Shown in pieces: positions 2,307 to 23,591 of a stretch of 35,153 nt of DNA (within the stretch, counting starts at the first letter, position 1; each line of letters starts with the position of its first letter). This stretch comes from Paenibacillus forsythiae T98. GTDB lineage: Bacteria > Bacillota > Bacilli > Paenibacillales > Paenibacillaceae. Under the pieces are notes generated by a model, which ran no database searches, had not been told where the DNA came from, and saw only the letters and a list, made by a program, of their open reading frames with translations. The DNA is taken from assembly GCF_000520735.1 (NCBI RefSeq), contig NZ_ASSC01000138.1, positions 1 to 35,153 on the forward strand, given 5' to 3'. The translations under genes and the position numbers were made by a program.

Positions 2307-3206
2307 ATGAAGATTAATCGGAGAGACTTTCTCAAGTGGTCGGTAGCGGCTGTGGCAGCGCTGAAGTTGGAGATGGACATGGACAAGCTTAACACGGTGA
2401 TGGCGGCGGAATCGGACCCGCCGGTCATTTGGCTGCTGGGCTCGGGTTGCTCGGGCTGCAGCATATCCACGCTGAACGTGACGAATCCGACGACCATCGA
2501 AGATGTGCTTCAGAACAAAATCAGCATGAAGTATGACAGCACGCTCATGGCCGCCTCAGGCGAAAGTGCGATGCAGGCGCTTGAAAATGCGGTGAATCAG
2601 TATAACGGACAATTTATTCTTGTGATCGAGGGCGCCATTCCAGGAGGATCTTCGAAAAACTACTGTATTATCGGTGAGCAGAACGGAGTCCCGCTCACCA
2701 TGTACGATGCTGTACTTAAATATGGTCCGAAAGCCAAATATGTCGTGGCGGCAGGGACCTGCGCCTCCTTCGGCGGTGTGGCGGCCGCTGCCCCCAACAG
2801 CACAGGATGCGTATCCGTTAAATCGCTGCTGAGCGGCAAAACCGCGAACCCGGTCGTCAATTTGGCAGGGTGTCCCGTGAATGCGACGGTAATGGTGCAG
2901 ACGCTGCTTGATTTAATCTTGACTGGTGTACCTTCTCTCGACAGTTACAGCCGCCCGAGAAAATATTTCAGCACAGACGTACACAGTGTTTGTCCAAGAA
3001 GAGAAACAGAAGAAGTGTCCCAGCCCGGAATTTACGGCTGCTATGAGGAAATCGGCTGCAAAGGCCCCGATAACCAATCGCCATGCCCGTCGCTCAAGTG
3101 GAACAACAAACAAGGCTGGTGCATCCAATCGAATTATCCGTGCATCGGTTGTACATCTCCCGCATTCCCGTTAAATCCTGTCATTTCCGTCTCAAGCGAC
3201 GACTAA
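2307..3206 (+). CDS. hyaA: [NiFe] hydrogenase small subunit, Tat-exported
   Basis: A 299-residue electron-transfer subunit of a periplasm-facing [NiFe] hydrogenase. A Tat signal (RRDFLK at 5-10) is followed by a short hydrophobic stretch. Proximal cluster ligands are C48, C51 (GCSGCS), C152 and C189. The distal cluster uses H226, C229, C245 and C251. The medial cluster has C260, C279 and C282, plus C272 in the motif GWCIQ where standard enzymes have proline, so a [4Fe-4S] rather than [3Fe-4S] medial cluster is expected. The two extra cysteines of oxygen-tolerant enzymes are absent (Gly at both positions), suggesting a standard oxygen-sensitive type. The protein ends soon after the last cluster, with no C-terminal membrane helix. 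It is the first gene of the operon and the large subunit follows after 17 bp. The subgroup is not assigned. Confidence 0.95.
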   Translation: MKINRRDFLKWSVAAVAALKLEMDMDKLNTVMAAESDPPVIWLLGSGCSGCSISTLNVTNPTTIEDVLQNKISMKYDSTLMAASGESAMQALENAVNQYNGQFILVIEGAIPGGSSKNYCIIGEQNGVPLTMYDAVLKYGPKAKYVVAAGTCASFGGVAAAAPNSTGCVSVKSLLSGKTANPVVNLAGCPVNATVMVQTLLDLILTGVPSLDSYSRPRKYFSTDVHSVCPRRETEEVSQPGIYGCYEEIGCKGPDNQSPCPSLKWNNKQGWCIQSNYPCIGCTSPAFPLNPVISVSSDD

Positions 3207-3223
3207 GAAAGGGTGAAATTACA

Positions 3224-4642
3224 ATGAGCACAATCAAGCTGGACCCGGTAACTCGTCTGGAAGGACATTTAAAGGTCGAAGTCACGCTCGATGCCAATAA
3301 TGCGGTTGCTTCAGCCACTGTGGCCGGAATGCTGTTCCGGGATTTTGAGAACATGCTGCTGAATCGGCCTCCAAGGGATGCTGCTTTCCTGACTCAGCGG
3401 ATTTGCGGTGTATGCCCTGTCCCTCAAGCCGTTGCTTCCTCAAAGGCCGTTGAAAAAATAAAGGGCTTTAAACCAAATCTCCAGGGGTTATTGCTCCGGA
3501 ATCTGATTCAAGGGGCGAATTTTCTGGACAGCGGTATCACGCATTTTTACCATTTATCGTTACTGGACTATATTCAAGGTCCGCAGATGAGCCCATGGAC
3601 GGGAGGCTACACGCAGGATCTAAGGTTCAATGCCGCCGATACCCAAACGCTGACGGATCACTATATTTCGGCGCTGCAAATCCGCAGAAAAGCCAACGAA
3701 ATGGCGGCTATCTTCAGCGGTAAGCTTCCCCATGCCGCGAATATTATTCCGGGTGGGGTAACCGCCTTGCCATCGTCAACGGAAATCACCAACTTCAGAA
3801 ACTATTTGAACGAGATTCAGTCATTCATTTCCAACACTTATCAATCGGACGTCAACATGCTGGCCTCGGCTTATAGCGATTACTACAACGTGGGCACAGG
3901 GTACGGCAACCTGATTACCTTTGGCGTATTCGACACGAATACTTCCGGAGGCTTGTTATTCCCTGCCGGCACTGTCATCGGCGGAACGGTCGGCGCATTT
4001 AATGAAGCGAACATTAAGGAATACAATAAATATTCCTATTACTCCTCTCCGAGCGGACAAGCCCCGGCAAGCGGTACCACAACTGCGAGCTACGGCAAGA
4101 GCGGAGCCTACACCTGGTTGAAATCTCCACGGTACAACAATACGCCTTTCGAAGCGGGACCGCTGGCCAGAGTATGGGTAAGCGGCGACTACCGCAGGGG
4201 CGTATCCGTTATGGACCGGCATATGGCACGATATGTGGAAATGTCCAAACTTGTAAGCAATATGCAGACGTGGTTGAACCAATTGACAGCAGGGGCCAGC
4301 GGCTTTACGAATATCGGCGCTCCCGTTTCGGGCAGCGCCTCCGGCTTAACGGAAGCTCCCCGTGGCGCGATTGGTCATTGGGTATCGGTATCCAGCTCCA
4401 AAATTTCCAGATACCAGATTATTACTCCGACCTGCTGGAACGCCTCTCCGATGGACGACGCTGGCAACCCGGGTCCTGTGGAAAAAGCATTGATCGGCAC
4501 CCCGGTGGCTAACCCGGCCCAGCCTGTGGAGCTGCTCCGCATTGTGCATTCCTTCGACCCCTGCACCGGTTGTTCCGTGCATGTCATGTCCCCGGAAGGC
4601 GTGGAAATGTCCAAATTTGTCGTTCAGCCTCTTGGCAAATAA
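3224..4642 (+). CDS. hyaB: [NiFe] hydrogenase large (catalytic) subunit
   Basis: A 472-residue catalytic subunit carrying the Ni-Fe(CN)2CO centre. The L1 motif RICGVCP supplies C61 and C64, and the L2 motif DPCTGCSVH (445-453) supplies C447 and C450. RLEGH near the N-terminus and PRGAIGHW near residue 380 are further family signatures. After H453 a 19-residue tail (beginning VMSPEG) would be removed by the protease encoded next. The start is ATG 3224, which follows GAAAGGGTG and gives MSTIKLDPVTRLEGH; a longer upstream frame overlaps the small-subunit gene and is not credible. The protein is shorter than many group 1 large subunits (usually about 550-600). It has no Tat signal and would be co-exported with the small subunit. 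Confidence 0.96.
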   Translation: MSTIKLDPVTRLEGHLKVEVTLDANNAVASATVAGMLFRDFENMLLNRPPRDAAFLTQRICGVCPVPQAVASSKAVEKIKGFKPNLQGLLLRNLIQGANFLDSGITHFYHLSLLDYIQGPQMSPWTGGYTQDLRFNAADTQTLTDHYISALQIRRKANEMAAIFSGKLPHAANIIPGGVTALPSSTEITNFRNYLNEIQSFISNTYQSDVNMLASAYSDYYNVGTGYGNLITFGVFDTNTSGGLLFPAGTVIGGTVGAFNEANIKEYNKYSYYSSPSGQAPASGTTTASYGKSGAYTWLKSPRYNNTPFEAGPLARVWVSGDYRRGVSVMDRHMARYVEMSKLVSNMQTWLNQLTAGASGFTNIGAPVSGSASGLTEAPRGAIGHWVSVSSSKISRYQIITPTCWNASPMDDAGNPGPVEKALIGTPVANPAQPVELLRIVHSFDPCTGCSVHVMSPEGVEMSKFVVQPLGK

Positions 4643-4644
4643 CG

Positions 4645-5121
4645 ATGAAGGACACGGCGGTCATTGGGATAGGCAACATACTCTTGAAGGATGACGGCAT
4701 CGGCGTCCATACCGTCCGGGAATTGGAGCAAGAAGATCTTCCGTCCACTGTTGAACTGGTGGACGGGGGAACTTCCACCCTTGCCATGCTGAGCTATTTT
4801 CTGGAGTGCCGGAGAATTATCGTTATCGATGCGTTGAAGGCAGGGCTTGAGCCCGGAACGATCTACCGGATCAGGCCGGAGGATATTGCGGGCTACAATA
4901 AGGAGAATTTATCTATTCATGATGTACAGATTTTGGATGTGGTCCAAATGGCCCGCATGCTCGGCGCCGCTCCGGACGTAATTATATTCGGCATTGAGCC
5001 GCAGGAGATCGGGTTTGATCTGGAATTGTCGGATCTTATGAGGAGCAAGATTCCTGAAATCATCGGGCTTCTTAAGCAAGAATTGAGCCTTGCGGAGCAG
5101 GAGGAGACGAACTTTGCATGA
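4645..5121 (+). CDS. hyaD: Hydrogenase maturation protease (HyaD/HybD family)
   Basis: A 158-residue nickel-dependent endopeptidase that trims the C-terminal tail of the large subunit after nickel insertion. The N-terminus AVIGIGNILLKDDGIGVH is the family signature. Predicted metal ligands are D17 (DDGIG), D62 (VIDAL) and H92 (SIHDV), matching the Glu16/Asp62/His93 pattern of E. coli HybD with Asp for Glu. The start ATG 4645 lies two bases after the large-subunit stop, which suggests translational coupling. Its substrate is almost certainly the large subunit encoded immediately upstream. Confidence 0.93.
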   Translation: MKDTAVIGIGNILLKDDGIGVHTVRELEQEDLPSTVELVDGGTSTLAMLSYFLECRRIIVIDALKAGLEPGTIYRIRPEDIAGYNKENLSIHDVQILDVVQMARMLGAAPDVIIFGIEPQEIGFDLELSDLMRSKIPEIIGLLKQELSLAEQEETNFA

Positions 5122-5455
5122 AGCGGCAATTGTGGAAAGCGCCTTGGAATTGATCCTTGCGAAAGCCGAAGAGCACCGTTTGAACAAAATCAAACGCATC
5201 ACGGCCAAAGTGGGAGAACTGTCGGGTGCCTTTCCGGAAGCGATGCAATTCGTGTTTCAAAGCGCATCGCAGGGTACGGTTGCGGAAGGAGCGGATTTCA
5301 TCATCGAACAGGTGAAAGCAACAGCCTCATGCGGCAGCTGCGGCATTACGTTTCCTATCCGTTATTACCATCCCGTGTGCCCTTCGTGCGGCGGGCTGGA
5401 GAATCAGGTTCTTACAGGTTATGAGCTGTATATCGATACGATGGAGGGTGATTAA
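5114..5455 (+). CDS. hypA: Nickel metallochaperone HypA
   Basis: A 113-residue nickel-binding accessory protein that delivers Ni(II) with HypB. Starting at TTG 5114 gives MHEAAIVESALELI, the conserved MHE nickel-binding N-terminus. A strong AGGAGGAG site precedes it, and the start overlaps the protease stop by 8 bases. A start at an upstream codon would bury the essential MHE motif, so TTG is preferred. Zinc is held by two CxxC pairs (CGSC and CPSC). The gene abuts hypB directly. Confidence 0.94.
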   Translation: MHEAAIVESALELILAKAEEHRLNKIKRITAKVGELSGAFPEAMQFVFQSASQGTVAEGADFIIEQVKATASCGSCGITFPIRYYHPVCPSCGGLENQVLTGYELYIDTMEGD

Positions 5456-6118
5456 ATGAGCAGCATTAAAGTGGTTACCAACATCCTGAAGGTGAATGAC
5501 GAGCTAACGCAGCAGAACAAGAAGCTGATGAACGAGAAGGGCCTCTATGTAATCAATTTGATGAGCTCTCCCGGGTCGGGCAAGACTTCCATTCTGGAGA
5601 AAGTGATCGCCAAGCTGAAGGATGAAGTGAAGATTGCGGTAATCGAGGGCGACCTTTATACGACAAAGGATGCCGAAAGAATCGAGGCTCACGACGTGCA
5701 GGTCGTGCAAATCAACACCGAGGGCGGGTGTCATCTGGATGGACAGATGATCCGGAACGCCTTAAGCCATTTGAACCTGGATGACACGAACCTGCTGATC
5801 ATCGAGAATGTCGGCAACCTGATTTGTCCCGCATCGTTTGAGCTTGGGGAAGATCTGATCATCACCGTGTTAAGCACGACGGAAGGAAACGACAAGCTGA
5901 TGAAATATCCGCGCATGTTCGAGAAGTCCGGTATTGTCATTTTAAATAAAGTCGATTTGCTGTCCTATACGAACTTTGACAAGGATGAATTTCACAAGGA
6001 TATCCGGGAGATCAATCCCAAGGCGAAGGTGCTTGAAACTTCCTGCGTGACCGGCGAGGGGATTGATGAGCTCTGCGCCTGGTTGAAGGAAACGATCTCG
6101 ATCTCGAATCCAGTATAA
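5456..6118 (+). CDS. hypB: Nickel-inserting GTPase HypB
   Basis: A 220-residue SIMIBI-class GTPase that drives nickel insertion into the hydrogenase large subunit. It has a Walker A PGSGKTS (39-45), the metal-site motif GGCHLD with C92 and H93, and the guanine-specificity motif NKVD. It lacks the His-rich N-terminal nickel-storage stretch found in some HypB proteins, so it would depend on HypA or free nickel. The ATG follows the hypA stop at once, with GGAGGGTG as ribosome binding site. Confidence 0.96.
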
Positions 6119-6135
6119 AAAAAGGAGTGTTACCT

Positions 6136-6366
6136 ATGCCTCATATCGGTTTTGGCGAACTTATTGTTATTCTGGTCATTGCGCTGATTGTGTTCGGTCC
6201 CGGCAAGCTTCCCTCCGTGGGCGGCGCCATCGGCAAAGCCTTCTCTGAATTCCGGAAAGCATCCAGGGAGTTAACCGGGGAAGCTGCCAATTCCACCGCT
6301 GCCAACGAGCCAGTTCCGGTTCAAGCGGCCACCGTTACTCAAGAAACAAATGAAGTCAAATCGTGA
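6136..6366 (+). CDS. tatA: Twin-arginine translocase subunit TatA
   Basis: A 76-residue single-span membrane protein with an N-terminal helix ([18 protein letters not shown]), the FGPGKLP hinge, an amphipathic helix, and a polar, Ala/Val/Glu-rich tail. ATG 6136 is chosen because AAAGGAG sits eight bases upstream; an in-frame GTG at 6127 overlaps that site. It lies between hypB and two tatC genes, which implies a Tat system made together with the hydrogenase. No separate tatB is present, as is usual in Firmicutes where TatA can do both jobs. Confidence 0.93.
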
Positions 6367-6380
6367 TCGTCTCATGGTGA

Positions 6381-7136
6381 ATGTTTATGGTGGAGAGTGA
6401 AAATATCGTAAACGCTGTTCGCTGGCTGGGAAAATTCCGCATTCGCATTCTAGCGGCGGTGTTGGTTGTTATCGTCTCGGCGACGGGCGTATATGCGGTG
6501 TCGGACCCGCTTCTGAAGCTCTTGTGCCGTCCGCTGCAGGATCATCCGCTGTTCTTTATGACGCCCGTAGACGGAGTGATGACGAAGCTGAAGGTGGCGA
6601 TGTACGGAGGAATTGTGGTGTCCTTTCCCGTTCTGGCCTGCCTGCTCGTGTCCATATTCGCCCCCCTGCTGGAGCGCGGCATTCGTCTCAAACTTTATTT
6701 TTTGGCCATTCCGTTCGCTGTCGTTCTATTTGCGGGGGGAATCGTTTTTGCCTGCGAGTTTATTCTGCCGAACACTGTTGATTTCCTGATCCAGAGCGGG
6801 GAAGGGGTTCTGAAGCCGATGATTTCGGGGAGTGCTTATGTGTCGTTTATGGCCTTCTTTTTGATCTCGGTGGCACTGGTCTTTGAACTGCCGATCGTGA
6901 TGGTTGCCCTGTCGAGAATTGGTCTGATTCATGCCAGAATGCTGATGAACAAGCGGAAATTCGCGGTCCTCGGAATTGTGATCGTCCTGGCGGTTTTGTC
7001 TCCCACCCCCGATGCGTTCTCCCTTCTGGCGGAATCGATACCGGTGGCGGCGCTGTATGAAATCAGTATTTGGACGATTTATCTTCTGGAGCGAAAGAGC
7101 ATGGCAAGGATGAAGCGTGTGACGACCCATGATTAA
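6381..7136 (+). CDS. tatC: Divergent TatC protein 1
   Basis: A 251-residue protein with about six membrane segments. It matches TatC in periplasmic loop 1 (FFMTPVDGV followed by TKLKV), in transmembrane segment 4 (FELP, residues 168-171, holding the conserved Glu), and in the last periplasmic loop (LSPTPDAFS, about 206-214), ending with LYEISI. It lacks the N-terminal HLxELRxR signature, having RWLGKFRIR instead, and lacks the YQxxAFxxPGLxxxER cytoplasmic loop that forms the twin-arginine recognition site in standard TatC. The start could be ATG 6381 or 6387; neither has a strong ribosome binding site. It overlaps the next tatC by 8 bases. It is probably a specialised subunit acting with the second TatC. 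Confidence 0.85.
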   Translation: MFMVESENIVNAVRWLGKFRIRILAAVLVVIVSATGVYAVSDPLLKLLCRPLQDHPLFFMTPVDGVMTKLKVAMYGGIVVSFPVLACLLVSIFAPLLERGIRLKLYFLAIPFAVVLFAGGIVFACEFILPNTVDFLIQSGEGVLKPMISGSAYVSFMAFFLISVALVFELPIVMVALSRIGLIHARMLMNKRKFAVLGIVIVLAVLSPTPDAFSLLAESIPVAALYEISIWTIYLLERKSMARMKRVTTHD

Positions 7137-7887
7137 TCGAACCTCGCTGCAAGATACGGATCAACCGGTGCTGGAACATTTGGCGGAGCTGCGCAGAAGA
7201 TTGATTGTGACGCTGGCTTCCGTCATCGTTCTGACCGCCGTCATTTATACGAAAGCGTTCCTGATTGTGGAGATTCTAAAAAAATCCGTTGGGAACCAGG
7301 GTCTTGAACTGGCGTTTTTTTCGCTAACCGGAGCTTTTGTTCTAAGGGTCAAGCTGTCTTTTATTGCATCCCTCATCACGCTGTCTCCGTTCATCGGCTA
7401 CCAGCTGTTTGCTTTTATCGGCCCTGGCCTGACCGCCAAGGAGCGTAAAGTGCTGCTTTCGGCGGTTGTTTATATGGTTCCCTGTTTCGTGCTCGGCGTC
7501 GTTCTCAGTTATGCGGCGGTCGTTCCTGTTGTATTGCACGCACTTCTTACATACGGAAATTCTTATATGAACGCTGCCTTGTCGGGCGAGGAATACCTCA
7601 GCTTCATTGCCATGCTGTGCGTTGTTTTCGGTCTTGTATTCACGCTTCCTTTTCCGCTTATCGCGCTCGGGAAGCTGGGGCTCCTGCGTTCCTCCTGGAT
7701 GAAAAAAGCGAGGGTCTCCGTTGTGTTCTCCGTATTGATCGGGGAAGGTCTGCTCGCGGCTGACGTCACCTCGGTTATTCTGCTCGGCGTGCCTTTGATT
7801 CTGATTTATGAAATCAGCCTGAGAGTCGTCATACGGATGGAGAAACGAAGGGAGGCGGCGTCATTATCACATCCAGGAATGGAATGA
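7129..7887 (+). CDS. tatC: Divergent TatC protein 2
   Basis: A 252-residue six-span protein. It keeps the N-terminal signature EHLAELRRRL (16-25) and the cytoplasmic loop YQLFAFIGPGLTAKERK (91-107), the regions that bind the RR motif in E. coli TatC. It has lost the membrane Glu in segment 4, reading FTLP (171-174) instead of FExP. It also lacks the TPxD motif before segment 6 and the FFxTP element of periplasmic loop 1. These are the elements TatC 1 keeps. The ATG overlaps the end of tatC 1, and hypF starts 12 bases after its stop. Together they suggest a two-protein TatC; this is an inference from motif retention. Confidence 0.85.
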   Translation: MINRTSLQDTDQPVLEHLAELRRRLIVTLASVIVLTAVIYTKAFLIVEILKKSVGNQGLELAFFSLTGAFVLRVKLSFIASLITLSPFIGYQLFAFIGPGLTAKERKVLLSAVVYMVPCFVLGVVLSYAAVVPVVLHALLTYGNSYMNAALSGEEYLSFIAMLCVVFGLVFTLPFPLIALGKLGLLRSSWMKKARVSVVFSVLIGEGLLAADVTSVILLGVPLILIYEISLRVVIRMEKRREAASLSHPGME

Positions 7888-7899
7888 GGGCGAACAGCT

Positions 7900-10266
7900 A
7901 TGTTAAGTGAGGTCATCCGGGTGGATGTCCAAGTGAAGGGCATTGTGCAGGGGGTGGGCTTCCGCCCGTTTGTATACCGGCTTGCGCAGCAGCATGATTT
8001 GACAGGTTGGGTCGTGAATGATGCGGGCGGAGTCAGACTGGAGGCGGAGGGCCACAGGCCAGATATTGATGCTTTTTTGGTTTCATTGCGAACGTCCGCC
8101 CCGCCTCTTTCCCATATCGAGGAGCTGACTGCGGAAGTGCGATCCCCGGCCGGATACGCGGAATTCCGCATAAAAGAGAGCGTTGGCGCCGGGCCACATG
8201 AGGTGCGCCTCTCGCCGGACATTGGCGTTTGTGAAGATTGTCTCGCGGAATTGAAGGACCCGGACAACCGGAGGTTCCGCTATCCGTACATCAACTGTAC
8301 CAACTGCGGACCCCGGTTTACCATTACCGTTCAAGTCCCGTATGACCGGAAGCATACGACCATCCGGGATTTCGGGCTGTGCGAGGATTGTGCGAAGGAA
8401 TACCATGACCCGGCGAATCGCCGGTTTCATGCTCAGCCGGTGTCATGTCCAGTCTGCGGCCCCTCGGTATATCTGCTGGACGCTTCCGGCAAAAGGCTGA
8501 ATACGGCTGATCCGGTAGCGTGCGCCGCCGAACAGTTGAAGTCGGGCTCCCTTCTTGCAATCAAGGGCCTCGGCGGCTATCACCTCGCTTGCGACGCGAC
8601 GCAGGAGGAAGCGGTACGGGAGCTCCGCGCGCGCAAGCGGAGGGACGGCAAGCCGTTCGCCGTTATGGCGGATACGCTGGAGACGGTTCTCCGCATCTGC
8701 GCGGTGACGGAGAAGGAGCGGGAGCTTCTCATGAGCCCCCGGCGGCCGATCGTCCTGCTTCCCTTGAAGACAGAGGCGCGGGGACTTCTTCCGGCGGCGG
8801 ATTGCCTATCCCCCGACAATGATATGCTCGGCGTGATGCTGCCGTATACGCCGCTGCAGCATCTGTTGTTTCAGGAAGGTTTGGAGCTGATGGTCATGAC
8901 GAGCGGCAACCGTTCCGGCGAGCCTATTGTGTACCGCGACGAGGAGGCGGTGCCGACTCTGCAAGGAATCGCCGATTATTACCTGGCTGGTGAGCTGCCT
9001 ATCCATATGAGGACGGACGATACGGTAACCAGTGTGTTTCGGGAACGGGAGTACGTCATTCGCAGGTCACGGGGGTACGTCCCTTATCCGGTCGATTTGA
9101 CTGCTGCCGTTCCATCGGCGGAAGGGGAGCCGCACAAGTCCGGTCATCTTCCCATTTTGGCTCTGGGGGGAGAATTAAAGAACACGTTTTGTCTGGTCAA
9201 GGACCGCAAAGCGTTTGTCAGCCATCATATCGGCGATCTGGATAATCTGGAAACGCTGGATTCCCTGATCGGCGGGGCGGAGCATTTCCAACAAATGTTC
9301 GCAGCCAAGGCTGGAGTTTTGGCCTACGATATGCACCCTGGATACCGCTCCTCCCAGTATGCATCCGAGCAACAGAACGTGGTCAAGATCCCCGTTCAGC
9401 ATCATCATGCCCATATCGCTTCCTGTATGGCGGAGAACGGCGTTTCCGGTCCGGTGATCGGGGTCGCCTTCGACGGAACGGGGCTGGGCGAAGACGGGCA
9501 TATCTGGGGCGGCGAATTTTTCGCCGGGGATTACGGCGGATTCGAGCGCATGGCCCGCTTCGGGTATGTCCCGCTCCCCGGCGGCGACGCGGCGGTCAAG
9601 GAGCCTTGGCGGATGGCGCTCAGCTATGTCATGAACGAAGAAGCGGCGGAGCCGCCGGCCGATTGGCTGAATACCATCGAGCCGTACAAACGGGACATCG
9701 TAAAACGCCAAATCCTTCAGCGCATTAACACGCCGCTCACCAGCAGCGTCGGCAGGCTGTTTGATGCCGTGTCGTCCTTGGCCGGTTTATGCCACTATGC
9801 CGAGTACGAAGGCCAGGCGGCCATTCGTTTGGAAAGGGCGGCGGATAAGGAGGCATCCCGGATTTATCCATATGACTTGAAGGCTGTACAAGGCGTTCTT
9901 GAGATCGGCACAGCTCCTCTGATTCGGGAGCTGGTTCGGGAGATTCGGGAAGGAGTGGGCATTTCCGAAATATCCGGAGCCTTTCATCGGACCTTGGCGG
10001 CAATTACAGGGGATGTTTGCCGGCGGATTCGGTCCGAGCGGGGGCTGAACGAGGTGGCGCTCAGCGGCGGTGTGTTCCAAAACCGCTTGCTGCTTGCCTT
10101 TACGGTCGATGAATTGGAGCGCAGCGGGTTTCGCGTATGGCTCCACAGCAAGGTGCCCGCCAATGATGGAGGGCTTTCACTGGGCCAGGCGGCGATCGCG
10201 CTGGGCAAATATCTCACACAGGAAGGGATGCGGGAATCATGTGTTTGGCAATACCCGGAGAAGTAG
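7900..10266 (+). CDS. hypF: Carbamoyltransferase HypF
   Basis: A 788-residue protein that makes the thiocarboxamide on HypE from carbamoyl phosphate, the precursor of the active-site cyanides. Domains in order: acylphosphatase (GIVQGVGFRPFVYRLA near residue 14), two Cys4 zinc fingers (CEDCLAE and CTNCGPR, then CEDCAKE and CPVCGPS, about 105-190), a YrdC-like domain (about 205-390, with MTSGNRSGEP), and a Kae1-like C-terminal domain with the HHHAHIAS metal motif near residue 500. The length is normal for the family. The 3' end overlaps hypC by 28 bases. Confidence 0.97.
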   Translation: MLSEVIRVDVQVKGIVQGVGFRPFVYRLAQQHDLTGWVVNDAGGVRLEAEGHRPDIDAFLVSLRTSAPPLSHIEELTAEVRSPAGYAEFRIKESVGAGPHEVRLSPDIGVCEDCLAELKDPDNRRFRYPYINCTNCGPRFTITVQVPYDRKHTTIRDFGLCEDCAKEYHDPANRRFHAQPVSCPVCGPSVYLLDASGKRLNTADPVACAAEQLKSGSLLAIKGLGGYHLACDATQEEAVRELRARKRRDGKPFAVMADTLETVLRICAVTEKERELLMSPRRPIVLLPLKTEARGLLPAADCLSPDNDMLGVMLPYTPLQHLLFQEGLELMVMTSGNRSGEPIVYRDEEAVPTLQGIADYYLAGELPIHMRTDDTVTSVFREREYVIRRSRGYVPYPVDLTAAVPSAEGEPHKSGHLPILALGGELKNTFCLVKDRKAFVSHHIGDLDNLETLDSLIGGAEHFQQMFAAKAGVLAYDMHPGYRSSQYASEQQNVVKIPVQHHHAHIASCMAENGVSGPVIGVAFDGTGLGEDGHIWGGEFFAGDYGGFERMARFGYVPLPGGDAAVKEPWRMALSYVMNEEAAEPPADWLNTIEPYKRDIVKRQILQRINTPLTSSVGRLFDAVSSLAGLCHYAEYEGQAAIRLERAADKEASRIYPYDLKAVQGVLEIGTAPLIRELVREIREGVGISEISGAFHRTLAAITGDVCRRIRSERGLNEVALSGGVFQNRLLLAFTVDELERSGFRVWLHSKVPANDGGLSLGQAAIALGKYLTQEGMRESCVWQYPEK

Positions 10267-10463
10267 AAAGCGTATGCGGAGACAGGGCGGTGGTCGATAT
10301 TACCGGTATCCGGAGGGAAGTGTCCATTGCTCTGGTTGACCCGGTGAACGTCGGAGATTACCTGCTCGTTCACGCGGGCTGCGCGATTGCGATTATTGAT
10401 AAGCAGGAAGCCATGGAGACGCTGGAGCTGCTCCATCAGTTGGCGGGGAATATCCATGATTAG
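10239..10463 (+). CDS. hypC: Hydrogenase assembly chaperone HypC
   Basis: A 74-residue chaperone that works with HypD to build the Fe(CN)2CO unit and carry it to the large subunit. It begins MCLAIPGEV, where Cys2 is the essential ligand, and has the short beta-barrel fold signature DITGIRREVSIALV and VGDYLLVHAGCAI. It overlaps both hypF and hypD, so the three are probably translationally coupled. Confidence 0.95.
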   Translation: MCLAIPGEVESVCGDRAVVDITGIRREVSIALVDPVNVGDYLLVHAGCAIAIIDKQEAMETLELLHQLAGNIHD

Positions 10464-11541
10464 CGAATTGGAACAATTCAGAAGTGAAACGCTGACGGAA
10501 GGTCTGGTGAAGGCAATCCGGCGCTATGACGGCAGGCCCGTTTCGATTATGGAGGTATGCGGCACCCATACGATGGCGATTTCCCGTTACGGCATTCGGG
10601 AATTGCTGCCGCCAAGCGTCAGGCTTATATCAGGACCGGGGTGTCCGGTCTGCGTAACCCCGAGCTTTTACCTGAAATCGGCTTTGGAGCTCTGCAGGAG
10701 AGAGGATACAATTCTGGCTACATTCGGTGACATGATGCGGATTCCGTATAAGGGCGCCAGCTTGCTGACCGAGAAGGCGCTGGGCAGGGATATCCGTATG
10801 GTCTATTCCCCGCTGGATAGTCTGGAGATCGCCAGGCAGCATCCGGACAAGAAGGTTATCTTTCTGTCTGTCGGATTTGAGACGACGGTTCCGGTCACGG
10901 CCATTGCGGTTCTGGAAGCCGCTCGGCAGGGACTTGACAATTTCATGATCCTGTCTGCCAATAAAACGATTCCGGCGGCGATGCATCTGCTGTCTTCGGA
11001 CCCCGAGGTCGCCGTTGACGGGTTCCTGTATCCCGGTCACGTCAGCGCGGTCATCGGTTCCGGGCTGTACGAGGAGCTGGCTCAAACGTACGGAATTCCG
11101 GGAGCCGTCACCGGGTTCGACCCTGCGGATATTTTAGGCTCGATCCTGTACGTTCTGGAGCAAATCCGGGATAACAAGGCCGAAGCCGCCAACTTATATT
11201 CCATGGTCGTTCAGCCGGGCGGCAATCCGATTGCCCGGGGGAAAATCGATGAGGTATTCGAGCCTTCGGATGCCGTGTGGCGGGGAATCGGACGGATTCC
11301 GGGCTCAGGCCTGCGGCTTCGCGAGAAGTACAGGCCCTTTGATGCCTGGAGCCTGGTAAACGGCTCCGTGGAGGAGCTGGACGAGGAAGCGGGCGGCTGC
11401 CGCTGCGGGGATATTCTGAAAGGGAAATGCCTCCCGTCCGATTGCAAGCTGTTTGGAAAGGCATGCACGCCCGAAACCCCGGTCGGTTCCTGTATGGTGT
11501 CCAGCGAGGGGACTTGTGCGGCTTATTACCGATACCAATAG
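10456..11541 (+). CDS. hypD: Fe-S scaffold protein HypD
   Basis: A 361-residue scaffold where CN and CO ligands are attached to iron. Conserved motifs are EVCGTHTM (C35), GPGCPVC (C63, C66), and a C-terminal Cys-rich segment (CRCGDILKGKCLPSDC and GSCM) that binds a [4Fe-4S] cluster. The start is ATG 10456, which overlaps the hypC stop. A longer upstream frame would run through most of hypC and adds no family sequence. Confidence 0.96.
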   Translation: MISELEQFRSETLTEGLVKAIRRYDGRPVSIMEVCGTHTMAISRYGIRELLPPSVRLISGPGCPVCVTPSFYLKSALELCRREDTILATFGDMMRIPYKGASLLTEKALGRDIRMVYSPLDSLEIARQHPDKKVIFLSVGFETTVPVTAIAVLEAARQGLDNFMILSANKTIPAAMHLLSSDPEVAVDGFLYPGHVSAVIGSGLYEELAQTYGIPGAVTGFDPADILGSILYVLEQIRDNKAEAANLYSMVVQPGGNPIARGKIDEVFEPSDAVWRGIGRIPGSGLRLREKYRPFDAWSLVNGSVEELDEEAGGCRCGDILKGKCLPSDCKLFGKACTPETPVGSCMVSSEGTCAAYYRYQ

Positions 11542-11553
11542 CGGGAGGAAATC

Positions 11554-12564
11554 ATGAGCGAAATCATTACTTTAGCCCACGGCAGCGGGGGGAAGCTGAC
11601 CCATCAACTGATCCGGGGGATCTTTCAGAAGCGCTTCCGAAACGATTGGCTTCTTGAGGGCGGCGATTCGGCGGTACTGGAAGCTCTCCCGGGCCAAATG
11701 GCGTTCACCACGGATTCGTATGTTATTCATCCGCTGTTTTTCCGTGGAGGGAACATCGGGAAGCTGGCCGTCTGCGGGACCGTTAATGACCTGGCCGTCT
11801 GCGGGGCTATTCCCAGGTATATTAGCTGCGGCTGGATCATCGAAGAAGGGTTTCCTATCGAGGAACTGGAGAAGATTGCGGAGTCGATGGCGTCGGCCGC
11901 ACAGGAAGCCGGTGTATTTATTGTGACCGGCGACACCAAGATCGTTCCGCGAGGCTGTGCGGACAAGCTATTCCTCAACACCTCCGGAGTGGGCTTTATT
12001 CCCGAGGGTCTCCGGCTGTCCCCTACCTTAATCCGGCCGGGGGATCGCGTGATCGTCTCCGGTACGATCGGGGATCACGGAACTGCAATTCTGATTGAGC
12101 GGGAACAGCTTCAGGTGGAAACCGGACTGGTAAGCGACTGTGCGCCGCTGAACGGAATGCTGGAGCTGGTGACGGCCTCGGTGGGCGGCGCCGTAAGACT
12201 TATGCGGGACCCGACCCGCGGCGGCGTAGCCACTACGCTGAACGAATTTACGGAGGGGCAGGGCTTCGGCATCCGGCTGGAGGAACATGCGCTTCCCGTA
12301 AAAGGAGAAGTGAGCGGTCTATGCGGCATGCTGGGAATGGACCCGCTGTACATAGCCAACGAGGGCAAAGCCATTCTGGTGGTCGATGGTGCCCAGGCGG
12401 ACAGAGTATTGGAACTGCTGCGCAGCCACCCCTACGGACAGGACGCCGCCGTGATCGGGGAAGTTGTCGTGGATCATCCGGGTAAGGTGTATATGCGTAC
12501 GCTGGCCGGAGGCCACCGCATCGTCGATATGCTGGTAGGCGATCAACTGCCCCGAATTTGTTAA
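11554..12564 (+). CDS. hypE: Thiocyanate-forming protein HypE
   Basis: A 336-residue PurM-like ATPase that dehydrates the carbamoylated C-terminal cysteine to a thiocyanate and donates CN to HypD. The N-terminus LAHGSGGKLTHQLI, the central DPTRGGVATTLNE and the terminal PRIC, with C336 as acceptor, are all present. GGGAGGAAATC precedes the ATG. It completes a full hypABFCDE set in the operon. Confidence 0.97.
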   Translation: MSEIITLAHGSGGKLTHQLIRGIFQKRFRNDWLLEGGDSAVLEALPGQMAFTTDSYVIHPLFFRGGNIGKLAVCGTVNDLAVCGAIPRYISCGWIIEEGFPIEELEKIAESMASAAQEAGVFIVTGDTKIVPRGCADKLFLNTSGVGFIPEGLRLSPTLIRPGDRVIVSGTIGDHGTAILIEREQLQVETGLVSDCAPLNGMLELVTASVGGAVRLMRDPTRGGVATTLNEFTEGQGFGIRLEEHALPVKGEVSGLCGMLGMDPLYIANEGKAILVVDGAQADRVLELLRSHPYGQDAAVIGEVVVDHPGKVYMRTLAGGHRIVDMLVGDQLPRIC

Positions 12565-12665
12565 ACGGCGTACTATCCCTATTTGTGGAAGAAATTATTA
12601 TGGCCAGAGTTGCAGGATATCTGTAAGTAAGAAGCGTGAGCGCTTTTACGGGAGAAGGTGTATTT

Positions 12666-13670
12666 ATGAAGAGAATTTCCTCCAGTAACGGCTATATCTA
12701 CTTTCTGGTTGTATTCGCGCTGCATGTGCTGGGGGTAGGTGGATTTCTCACGGCAGCAGCCAGTCAGCCAGAGCTGTGGGGGCTTGGCCTGTTGGCTTAT
12801 ACGCTTGGTCTGCGCCACGCTTTCGACGCCGATCATATTGCGGCCATTGACAATACGATCCGGAAGCTGATCGAACGGGAGAGAAACCCTTTAGGGGTAG
12901 GCATGTATTTTTCGCTGGGGCACTCGACTGTCGTCTTTCTTATGGTGCTGGGAATCGCGCTCTCGATGAATTCGCTAGTGCTAGGCAATCCGGCTGTACG
13001 TGAAATCGGCGGGATGATCGGTACGTTTGTTTCCGGGTTCTTCCTGATCTTCGTCGGACTGATTAATGTGTTCACGCTTGTGAAGCTGTTGGGCGGAATT
13101 CGGAGGGGGAAGGACCGGACAGAAGGGGATTTTGAACCGGGTCATGGGCATGGACCGAAGGGGCTGTTGACCCGATTATTGACTCCTGCCTTTCGAATGA
13201 TCAACAAAAGCTGGCATATGTATCCGCTCGGATTTCTGTTCGGTCTTGGCTTTGATACGGCGACGGAAGTCAGTCTGCTGGCGATTACGGCCAGTACCGC
13301 GAATCAATCGTTCTCCATGATCGGCATTTTATCTCTGCCGCTGCTGTTTGCCGCCGGAATGAGTCTGATGGACACGATTGACGGCGCGATTATGACCCGA
13401 GCCTACCGGTGGGCATTTATATCCTATAAGAAAAAAACAGCTTATAATCTGATCGTTACCGGTGTGTCGGTTGTATCCGCGTTTCTTATCGGGGCCATTC
13501 AGCTCGTTCATTTAATTGAAGTACGATGGCCGCAGTCTTTCCGGTGGGTCAACAGTCTCGGTATCGATCACCTTGGCTACGCTTTGACCGGATTTCTCAT
13601 TGTGAGCTGGATCATCTCGATGATGATTTGGAAAGGGATGAAAGGCAGACAGGCCGTTGACGGAACGTGA
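12666..13670 (+). CDS. NiCoT-family nickel/cobalt permease
   Basis: A 334-residue membrane protein of the HoxN/NixA/HupN type that imports Ni(II). The signature HAFDADH (H51, D56, H57; the HX4DH motif of segment 2) and LGFDTATEVSLL are both present, with about eight membrane segments. ATG 12666 is preferred because GGGAGAAGG precedes it; an in-frame GTG at 12636 would give a 10-residue polar extension. It lies 101 bp after hypE on the same strand with no terminator between them, so it is probably the operon's last gene, supplying nickel for the hydrogenase. No NikR site is evident. Confidence 0.93.
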   Translation: MKRISSSNGYIYFLVVFALHVLGVGGFLTAAASQPELWGLGLLAYTLGLRHAFDADHIAAIDNTIRKLIERERNPLGVGMYFSLGHSTVVFLMVLGIALSMNSLVLGNPAVREIGGMIGTFVSGFFLIFVGLINVFTLVKLLGGIRRGKDRTEGDFEPGHGHGPKGLLTRLLTPAFRMINKSWHMYPLGFLFGLGFDTATEVSLLAITASTANQSFSMIGILSLPLLFAAGMSLMDTIDGAIMTRAYRWAFISYKKKTAYNLIVTGVSVVSAFLIGAIQLVHLIEVRWPQSFRWVNSLGIDHLGYALTGFLIVSWIISMMIWKGMKGRQAVDGT

Positions 13671-22760: not shown

Positions 22761-23591
22761 CTATGCCTCCGTGACTGCCGCCGCTTCTTTCTTCAAGGCT
22801 TTTTTGAACATTTTCACCGCGGAAGCGATCAGTATGGCGCCAAGTACGAGCTTAAGCCAACTGGAAGATACGTAGCCGATCAGCATTCCGCCGATAAAGG
22901 AACCGATAATGGAGCCGATGCCCATGGGCAGAACAAGATCCCGCAATTCGGACTTCTGCTTGTAGGCTCCGTTGGAGCCATGTCTAATGATGCCGATCAG
23001 CACCGTTGGCAGACTGATGAGAATGCTGGCTGTGCCTGCGATTTTGATATCCAGCCCGAATACGAGAATCAGAGTGGGGATAATCAGCTCTCCGCCGGCC
23101 ACCCCGAGCAGGCTGCTCACAATGCCAATGCATAGGCCAAAGAGGACTCCAACAATAATCGCGGCGGGAAGCTTCATCGGGATGCCGCCCGATACAATGG
23201 GATGAAAGGATTCCACCAGAAGCAGGACGCCAATGCCGACCAATAAGACGAGAATGACCTTCTCCAGCGCGCGTTCCGACAGATGCTTCGAGTAATTGGC
23301 GCCCGTGTAGGCGCCGATCATCCCTCCGGCAATGAACGCGAGGATAATAGGAATATCCTGGACCAGATCGCTTACGGCGATTTTGGGAAGGCGAAAGATC
23401 AGCGAGGAGAGGAGCGTAATTAAACTGACGGCCAAATTAAAAGCTACCGCTTGCCGGGCGGTATAACGGAATATACCAACCAGCACGGGTAGACGAAACT
23501 CGGCGCCTCCCAGTCCGATTAAGCCTCCCAGGCAACCGATCGGCGCGCCTGTGATCAAAGCGAGGAATGATTTTCTTCCACTGTCTGCCAT
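22761..23591 (-). CDS. TauE/SafE-family anion exporter
   Basis: A 276-residue protein with about eight membrane segments in two homologous halves. GGLIGLGGAEFRLPVL in the first half and SLLGVAGGELIIPTLIL in the second are the typical repeats of TauE/SafE (DUF81) proteins, which export sulfite, sulfoacetate or related organic anions. AGGAGGT precedes the ATG. It lies divergent from the methionine-type operon, a possible sulfur link, but the substrate is not determined by sequence. Confidence 0.9.
   Translation of the reverse strand: MADSGRKSFLALITGAPIGCLGGLIGLGGAEFRLPVLVGIFRYTARQAVAFNLAVSLITLLSSLIFRLPKIAVSDLVQDIPIILAFIAGGMIGAYTGANYSKHLSERALEKVILVLLVGIGVLLLVESFHPIVSGGIPMKLPAAIIVGVLFGLCIGIVSSLLGVAGGELIIPTLILVFGLDIKIAGTASILISLPTVLIGIIRHGSNGAYKQKSELRDLVLPMGIGSIIGSFIGGMLIGYVSSSWLKLVLGAILIASAVKMFKKALKKEAAAVTEA

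Follow-up and report, generated by a model that had tools for sequence, protein, structure and literature searches.

In Paenibacillus forsythiae T98, a compact plus-strand [NiFe]-hydrogenase operon carries tatA and two tatC genes between hypB and hypF, and only one of the two TatC proteins, TatC2, keeps the residues that bind a twin-arginine (RR) signal. Tandem pairs of one signal-reading and one signal-blind TatC recur in other Bacillota, and blind TatCs have more than one origin. We consider it most likely, at a probability of about 0.6, that the operon has its own TatA–TatC machine in which TatC is divided between paralogues that join in one mixed core.

The window, which is the whole stretch of 35,153 nucleotides that was analysed (contig NZ_ASSC01000138.1), contains the genes in Table 1. 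A preliminary description of this DNA had noted a hydrogenase operon with tatA and two overlapping tatC genes, and this was borne out: the tatC frames overlap by 8 nt, with the ATG of tatC2 at position 7129. The small subunit has the N-terminus MKINRRDFLKWS, a canonical twin-arginine signal, and is the presumed cargo of the operon's Tat genes. The operon TatA, read directly, has a Glu where E. coli has E8 in TatB and Q8 in TatA. We take the ORF that follows the large-subunit gene to be a HyaD-like maturation protease, and the names of hypA, hypB, hypF, hypC, hypD, and hypE are likewise putative assignments.

Table 1. Genes of the hydrogenase operon and the evidence for each.
Feature	Position	Strand	Evidence
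[NiFe]-hydrogenase small subunit, RRDFLKWS twin-arginine signal	2307..3206	+	Pfam Oxidored_q6, NiFe_hyd_SSU_C, TAT_signal
[NiFe]-hydrogenase large subunit	3221..4642	+	PF00374, 369 bits
Maturation protease ORF	4645..5121	+	BLAST homologue at same place in G208 and G781 operons
hypA	5117..5455	+	ORF, synteny with G208 and G781 operons
hypB	5456..6118	+	ORF, synteny with G208 and G781 operons
tatA	6127..6366	+	PF02416, 66.8 bits
tatC1, TatC-family, without RR-binding residues	6381..7136	+	PF00902; residue table
tatC2, TatC with RR-binding residues; E170→T, Q215→V	7129..7887	+	PF00902; residue table
hypF	7900..10266	+	ORF, synteny with G208 and G781 operons
hypC	10239..10463	+	ORF, synteny with G208 and G781 operons
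hypD	10453..11541	+	ORF, synteny with G208 and G781 operons
hypE	11554..12564	+	ORF, synteny with G208 and G781 operons

Directly 3′ of hypE lies an ORF (12636–13670, +) that by eye resembles a NiCoT-like nickel permease, which suits the nickel supply of a hydrogenase. Upstream of the operon, an ORF on the opposite strand (240–656, −) has a ParA-like P-loop start and ends early at 240; it is possibly a cut or frameshifted gene. Repeat and promoter scans gave nothing to the point. Elsewhere in the genome there is a housekeeping TatC on contig C882, where it is cut by the contig end, and a second TatA on contig C458. A candidate fourth TatC in the window (22869–23258, −) was rejected: its PF00902 match is weak (26.9 bits, just over the Pfam cut-off) and probably a false positive, the ORF at that place (22761–23591, −) resembling by eye a TauE/SafE-type permease.

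TatC1 (251 aa) and TatC2 (252 aa) are separate, unfused, full-length TatC-family proteins, matching PF00902 with 144.1 bits (profile positions 3–208) and 151.6 bits (1–208), respectively, against a cut-off of 25.1. With the TatC equivalog TIGR00945 (cut-off 132.7), TatC2 scored above the cut-off at 165 bits and TatC1 below it at 117.7, and TatC1 is therefore filed as a TatC-family paralogue rather than a TatC receptor. Monomer predictions from four-row alignments were too poor for the glove fold, with mean pLDDT values of 41.6 for TatC1 and 46.0 for TatC2.

Residues were numbered by alignment to a fetched E. coli TatC. In E. coli the signal is contacted by H12, E15, F94, Y100, and E103 of TatC; E15, F94, and E103 contact the two signal arginines, and E103A serves as a binding-negative control (PMC13323110, excerpt). 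TatA or TatB docks on M205, T208, and Q215 of one TatC together with TMH1 of the next (PMC13323110, excerpt). Export of CueO persists at a reduced level in the E. coli T208A and Q215A single variants and is abolished in the double variant (PMC5201420, excerpt).

At the signal contacts the window's TatC1 has W12, K15, I94, E100, and I103, so the earlier statement that it lacks both recognition elements was correct. The four other Paenibacillus orthologs agree at positions 12, 15, and 103, with M94 and with E, D, or G at position 100 across the set. TatC1 keeps E170, S208, and D211, and Q215 is replaced by L in 5/5 orthologs. The recognition parts attributed to TatC2 are indeed present, with H12, E15, F94, and E103 kept in 5/5 orthologs; Y100 is replaced by T, at a position that is variable in many intact TatCs. 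At residue 170, TatC2 has T in the window and in P. brasilensis and M in the other three orthologs, so that the FTLP motif first noted applies to two of the five. Residue 215 is V in all five, and residue 208 is A in four and S in one, in a column that a one-residue gap makes uncertain. TatC2 was also said to have no TPxD, which describes the letters correctly; the Asp is nevertheless present: D211 stands in AAD, aligned with APD in the Aquifex TatC.

To judge how unusual these changes are, we compared them across 150 aligned rows. Residue 170 was E or Q in 141 of these; the nine remaining rows were one gap, the five Paenibacillus TatC2, L190 (T), and L167 and L169 (both N), which gives a departure in 5/5 TatC2 versus 3/144 other readable rows. 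Residue 215 was not universal (Q in 100/150 rows, D in 20/150). Only two changes are conspicuous against the other rows, the missing RR site of TatC1 and the lost residue 170 of TatC2. The proposed alignment check thus found that the two proteins do not both retain all functional residues, and the idea of complementary loss holds for these two features but not for D211, which both proteins have, or Q215, which neither has.

TatC1 has near copies (86–88% identity) beside TatC2 in four other Paenibacillus, namely P. rhizophilus (L066), P. zanthoxyli (L067), P. brasilensis KACC 13842 (L068), and genome G032. The RR-site pattern is fixed and the tatC genes overlap in all five operons. Within a 295-genome family sample, a close TatC1 and a close hydrogenase co-occurred in two genomes, the present one and G013; in G592, from the same sample, the hydrogenase match was 39% and no tatC was found in the 19 kb around it. 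A scan of genome contigs with two N-terminal peptide patterns only returned three Paenibacillus loci, and a TatC1 search of plasmids gave no match above 60% identity. At the P. rhizophilus locus of G013 (L121, 12931–14909, −) there are two tandem small-subunit genes and one large-subunit gene, the two small subunits being 94% and 91% identical to the single one in the window.

Over ten pairs each, dN/dS was 0.12–0.22 for TatC1 and 0.15–0.27 for TatC2, compared with 0.04–0.10 for the hydrogenase large subunit and 0.13–0.19 for HypF. Both tatC genes are under purifying selection, TatC2 being constrained a little less than HypF, and on this evidence neither appears to be decaying.

Such a division is not peculiar to the hydrogenase operon: 18 tandem pairs occur in other Bacillota genomes, each with one RR-competent and one RR-defective partner. 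PF00902 matched in 218 of the 398 genomes of a phylum sample. Of the 41 genomes other than the present one that had two or more matches, 34 were read (G135, G342, and G363, with two matches each, were left out, as were G239, G264, G312, and G387, in which the two tatC copies are far apart). A tandem pair was present in 13/34, and the order of G410 (14 genomes) added five, giving 18 genomes in eight families. The gene directly before the pair is tatA in 13 of the 18, the exceptions being five f117 genomes. In all 18 genomes, some of them incomplete, the pair accounts for every PF00902 match, and the 15 tested have one TatA-family gene (11 genomes) or two (4 genomes). The blind TatC is therefore half of the only Tat core detected in such a genome.

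In 23/23 tandem pairs (5 from Paenibacillus and 18 others), H12, F94, and E103 are all kept by one partner and one only. Gene 1 of the other pairs retains H12, E15, F94, and E103 in 18/18. Gene 2 has lost E103 in 17/18, the exception being G278, and two or more of H12, F94, and E103 in 17/18 (in G229 only E103 is gone). The TatA-docking residues fared differently: T208, D211, and Q215 are all present in gene 1 of 16/18 pairs, and gene 2 has T208 and D211 in 17/17 readable rows and Q215 in 15. Since both partners keep most of these residues, loss in the 18 other pairs is one-sided. One-sided loss is the general rule, with reciprocal loss seen only in Paenibacillus. Gene order also differs, the blind gene coming first in Paenibacillus and the intact gene first in the other pairs.

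As controls we used 104 non-tandem rows, which were not a random draw: they consist of the best TatC1 matches, relatives of the window, and unlinked duplicates. H12, F94, and E103 were kept in 89 of the 100 with a readable N-terminus. Each of the 11 remaining rows belongs to a genome that has two or more TatCs; a companion TatC was read for 10 of them, all but the one in G003, and was intact every time. All three residues are lost in seven of the 11, which are unlinked TatCs (L154 in G367, L156 in G734, L181 in G188, L183 in G218, L184 in G069, L188 in G243, and L189 in G407), and each of these genomes has an intact TatC elsewhere. E103 alone is lost, with H12 and F94 kept, in L031 (G003), L172 (G187), L185 (G170), and L190 (G384), whose genomes have more than one TatC each. 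Unlinked blind TatCs occur in f27, f101, and f136 genomes.

The mean net charge of the TMH2–3 loop (residues 98–108) was 0.7 for gene 1 of the other tandem pairs and 3.5 for gene 2. Unlinked blind TatCs averaged 3.1, Paenibacillus TatC1 2.4, and the 88 intact non-tandem rows 1.2; Paenibacillus TatC2 and E. coli TatC both have 2.0. A control loop (residues 182–196) gave means of 2.8 versus 2.7 within the tandem pairs. The blind site gains basic charge and the control loop does not, the lost acid itself being part of the shift.

Trees were calculated with the RR-site columns left out; for the quick tree, five cut-off rows were dropped, near-identical rows were thinned, and 20 more were left out, leaving 100. 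With the unlinked f136 copies included, the two genes of the other pairs formed sister clades (support 98/95 for gene 1, 94/87 for gene 2, and 98/95 for both together; 98, 96, and 97 in the quick tree), which indicates a single ancient duplication whose products have stayed together. Placing the f27 and f101 blind TatCs with the gene 2 clade was rejected (AU p 0.0005), as was a single clade of all blind TatCs (AU p 0.0016), and signal-blind TatC therefore requires at least two origins. Paenibacillus TatC1 and TatC2 have long branches (1.88 and 2.84), and for these proteins the AU test did not reject TatC1 with the blind clade (0.34), TatC2 with the intact clade (0.44), or TatC1 with TatC2 (p 0.36), so that descent from the other tandem pairs and a separate origin both fit the tree.

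Single-tatC versions of the operon had been named as a refutation of divided function. Among 20 hydrogenase regions, comprising the best matches in the 398-genome phylum sample plus G592, tatC was nearby in two: G208, whose operon (large subunit 54%) has hypB, tatA, one tatC, and hypC-D-E, and G379 (large subunit 43%). No tatC was found within about 9 kb in the other 18, some of which are cut by contig ends. G781, of the same class as G208 (large subunit 54%), has one tatA–tatC, located at the opposite operon end; its locus (L201, 12851–15960, −) also has three tandem small-subunit genes beside one large-subunit gene. Such operons therefore exist, but in both G208 and G781 the lone TatC is intact (H12, D/E15, F94, E103, E170, T208, D211, and Q215), a finding as compatible with one TatC having been divided as it is with the refutation.

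In the mixed core that we favor, TatC2 would be the receptor, its TMH1 end and TMH2–3 loop binding the small subunit's twin-arginine signal. TatC1 would be unable to bind the signal, with E15 changed to Lys, E103 to Ile, and basic charge added around the site. Because the periplasmic part, E170, and some of the TatA-docking site are still present in it, TatC1 could complete the oligomer and hold TatA. E. coli TatC functions as an obligate oligomer (PMC5102672, excerpt) and is a trimer in solved cores (PMC13323110, excerpt). A mixed core would have fewer signal sites than TatC subunits, and thus a built-in asymmetry; for a mixed trimer this would mean one or two sites. TatC2 lacks Q215 and probably T208, the two residues whose joint replacement kills CueO export, and our guess is therefore that TatA sits mainly on TatC1, to which TatC1 S208 and D211 and the Glu at the docking position of the operon TatA also point. 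In E. coli a single working signal site is proposed to arise because TatA replaces one TatB (PMC13323110, excerpt); a pair genome with one TatA-family gene has no TatB for this role, which a blind TatC could fill instead. A group of other Bacillota would use the same plan as their only TatC set, with TatA-docking residues on both subunits.

The overlap of the two tatC genes directly after tatA speaks for this arrangement, as do the fixed RR-site pattern in 5/5 operons, the purifying selection on both genes, the basic charge gained at the blind site, and the pairs of other Bacillota; the machine would serve the hydrogenase. Counting against the mixed core are the housekeeping TatC, which could pair with TatC1 or TatC2, the incomplete partition at D211 and Q215, the gapped column at residue 208 of TatC2, the variability of residue 215 among the rows, the undecided tree position of the Paenibacillus pair, the lack of a nearby tatC in 18/20 hydrogenase regions of the wider family, and the reversed gene order. 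In a rival reading, TatC1 and TatC2 are unpaired: TatC2, with TatA, would be the hydrogenase translocase or would feed the housekeeping TatC, and TatC1 would have another job, for example as a TatA-binding or regulatory membrane protein. The low equivalog score of TatC1, the housekeeping TatC and second TatA in the genome, and the unlinked blind TatCs of the f27, f101, and f136 genomes, which show that adjacency is not always needed, are all consistent with it. We nevertheless regard it as unlikely, given the gene overlap in 5/5 operons, the absence from TatC2 of E170 and Q215, which are normally present where a TatC functions on its own, and the genomes in which a pair is the only TatC set found.

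Less likely again is that a TatC2 homo-oligomer suffices and that TatC1, as an extra and partly redundant copy, improves TatA recruitment; function would then not be divided. TatC2 does keep D211 and every residue that contacts the two arginines, and either docking variant alone still allows export in E. coli; but TatC2 has A/S and V at the two positions of the non-exporting double variant, and its non-E/Q residue 170 is nearly private to it. Least probable, to the point of being implausible, is that TatC1 (or TatC2) is a decaying duplicate under relaxed constraint whose motif losses are drift. The long branches and the faster evolution of the TatCs relative to the large subunit would be expected of decay, yet dN/dS is well below 1 in 20/20 comparisons, there are no stops, identity between species is 86–89%, and other lineages, with no TatC found apart from the pair, show this pattern too. 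For TatC1, decay was rejected on dN/dS.

The original motif observation thus stands with corrections, and its setting is wider than hydrogenase operons; on present sequence comparisons, a heteromer seems the best explanation. A broader reading, which we hold tentatively and rate somewhat below even odds, is that signal-blind TatCs form a recurring functional class of subunit that joins a signal-reading TatC, fixes the number of signal sites, and encodes asymmetry. It would cover jointly the two or more Bacillota origins, perhaps the haloarchaeal fused TatCs, and Paenibacillus as the case taken furthest, where the reader itself lacks E170 and Q215. TatA-only systems would then obtain from their genes the asymmetry for which the TatA/TatB exchange is proposed in E. 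coli. To judge from the recurrence of signal-reading and signal-blind TatCs in pairs, certain export machines may have a lopsided build. Bacteria with apparently one TatA and two TatCs, one of them blind, would be natural experiments in which genes set the number of sites per core. The Paenibacillus operon adds a case in which signal reading and, probably, TatA docking lie on different subunits, and which appears tied to one folded metalloenzyme cargo.

Our literature search, which did not extend to bioRxiv or most subscription journals, did not turn up any description of bacterial TatC pairs in which one member is signal-blind. The nearest in print is a 2026 review that speculates on such TatC asymmetry for the haloarchaeon Halobacterium and holds that Bacillus-type TatAC systems can use only regulatory asymmetry (PMC13186574, excerpt). 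Like Paenibacillus, Halobacterium salinarum has a normal TatC and a second TatC-type protein; its second TatC is a fusion of two TatCs, whereas that of Paenibacillus is a separate six-helix TatC. The haloarchaeal TatC1 and fused TatC2 are also named TatCo and TatCt. Fused double TatCs are found on plasmids of Natronococcus, Halomarina, and Halocatena (L197, 3725–5578; L203, 3456–5708; L204, 3441–5690), and in a rough alignment H12, F94, and E103 are absent from 6/6 halves of these three proteins. The annotated flanks of the L203 and L204 genes contain no second TatC. The three fused TatCs may be a lead for the same idea of asymmetry.

Bacteria with several TatCs include Sulfobacillus and Paenibacillus (Simone et al, 2013; PMC3827258, excerpt), and several TatCs per genome are described there for Bacilli including Paenibacillus. 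The Bacillus TatAd–Cd and TatAy–Cy systems share with the Paenibacillus operon a TatA and TatC without TatB and a gene location linked to the substrate. In the Bacillus type, however, each TatC has its own TatA and they form separate systems (PMC3827258, excerpt), whereas in Paenibacillus two TatCs follow one tatA and only one has the RR site. In Parageobacillus thermoglucosidasius, tatA and tatC flank the Pha locus of a [NiFe] group 1d hydrogenase (PMC6036681, excerpt). That locus and those of G208 and G781 resemble the Paenibacillus operon in having tatA and tatC at a hydrogenase locus, but they have one TatC and not two divided ones. For E. coli, an asymmetric TatA1B2C3 core with one physiologically relevant signal site has been proposed (PMC13323110, excerpt); there the asymmetry is that of TatA versus TatB around three identical TatCs, whereas in Paenibacillus it would lie in TatC itself.
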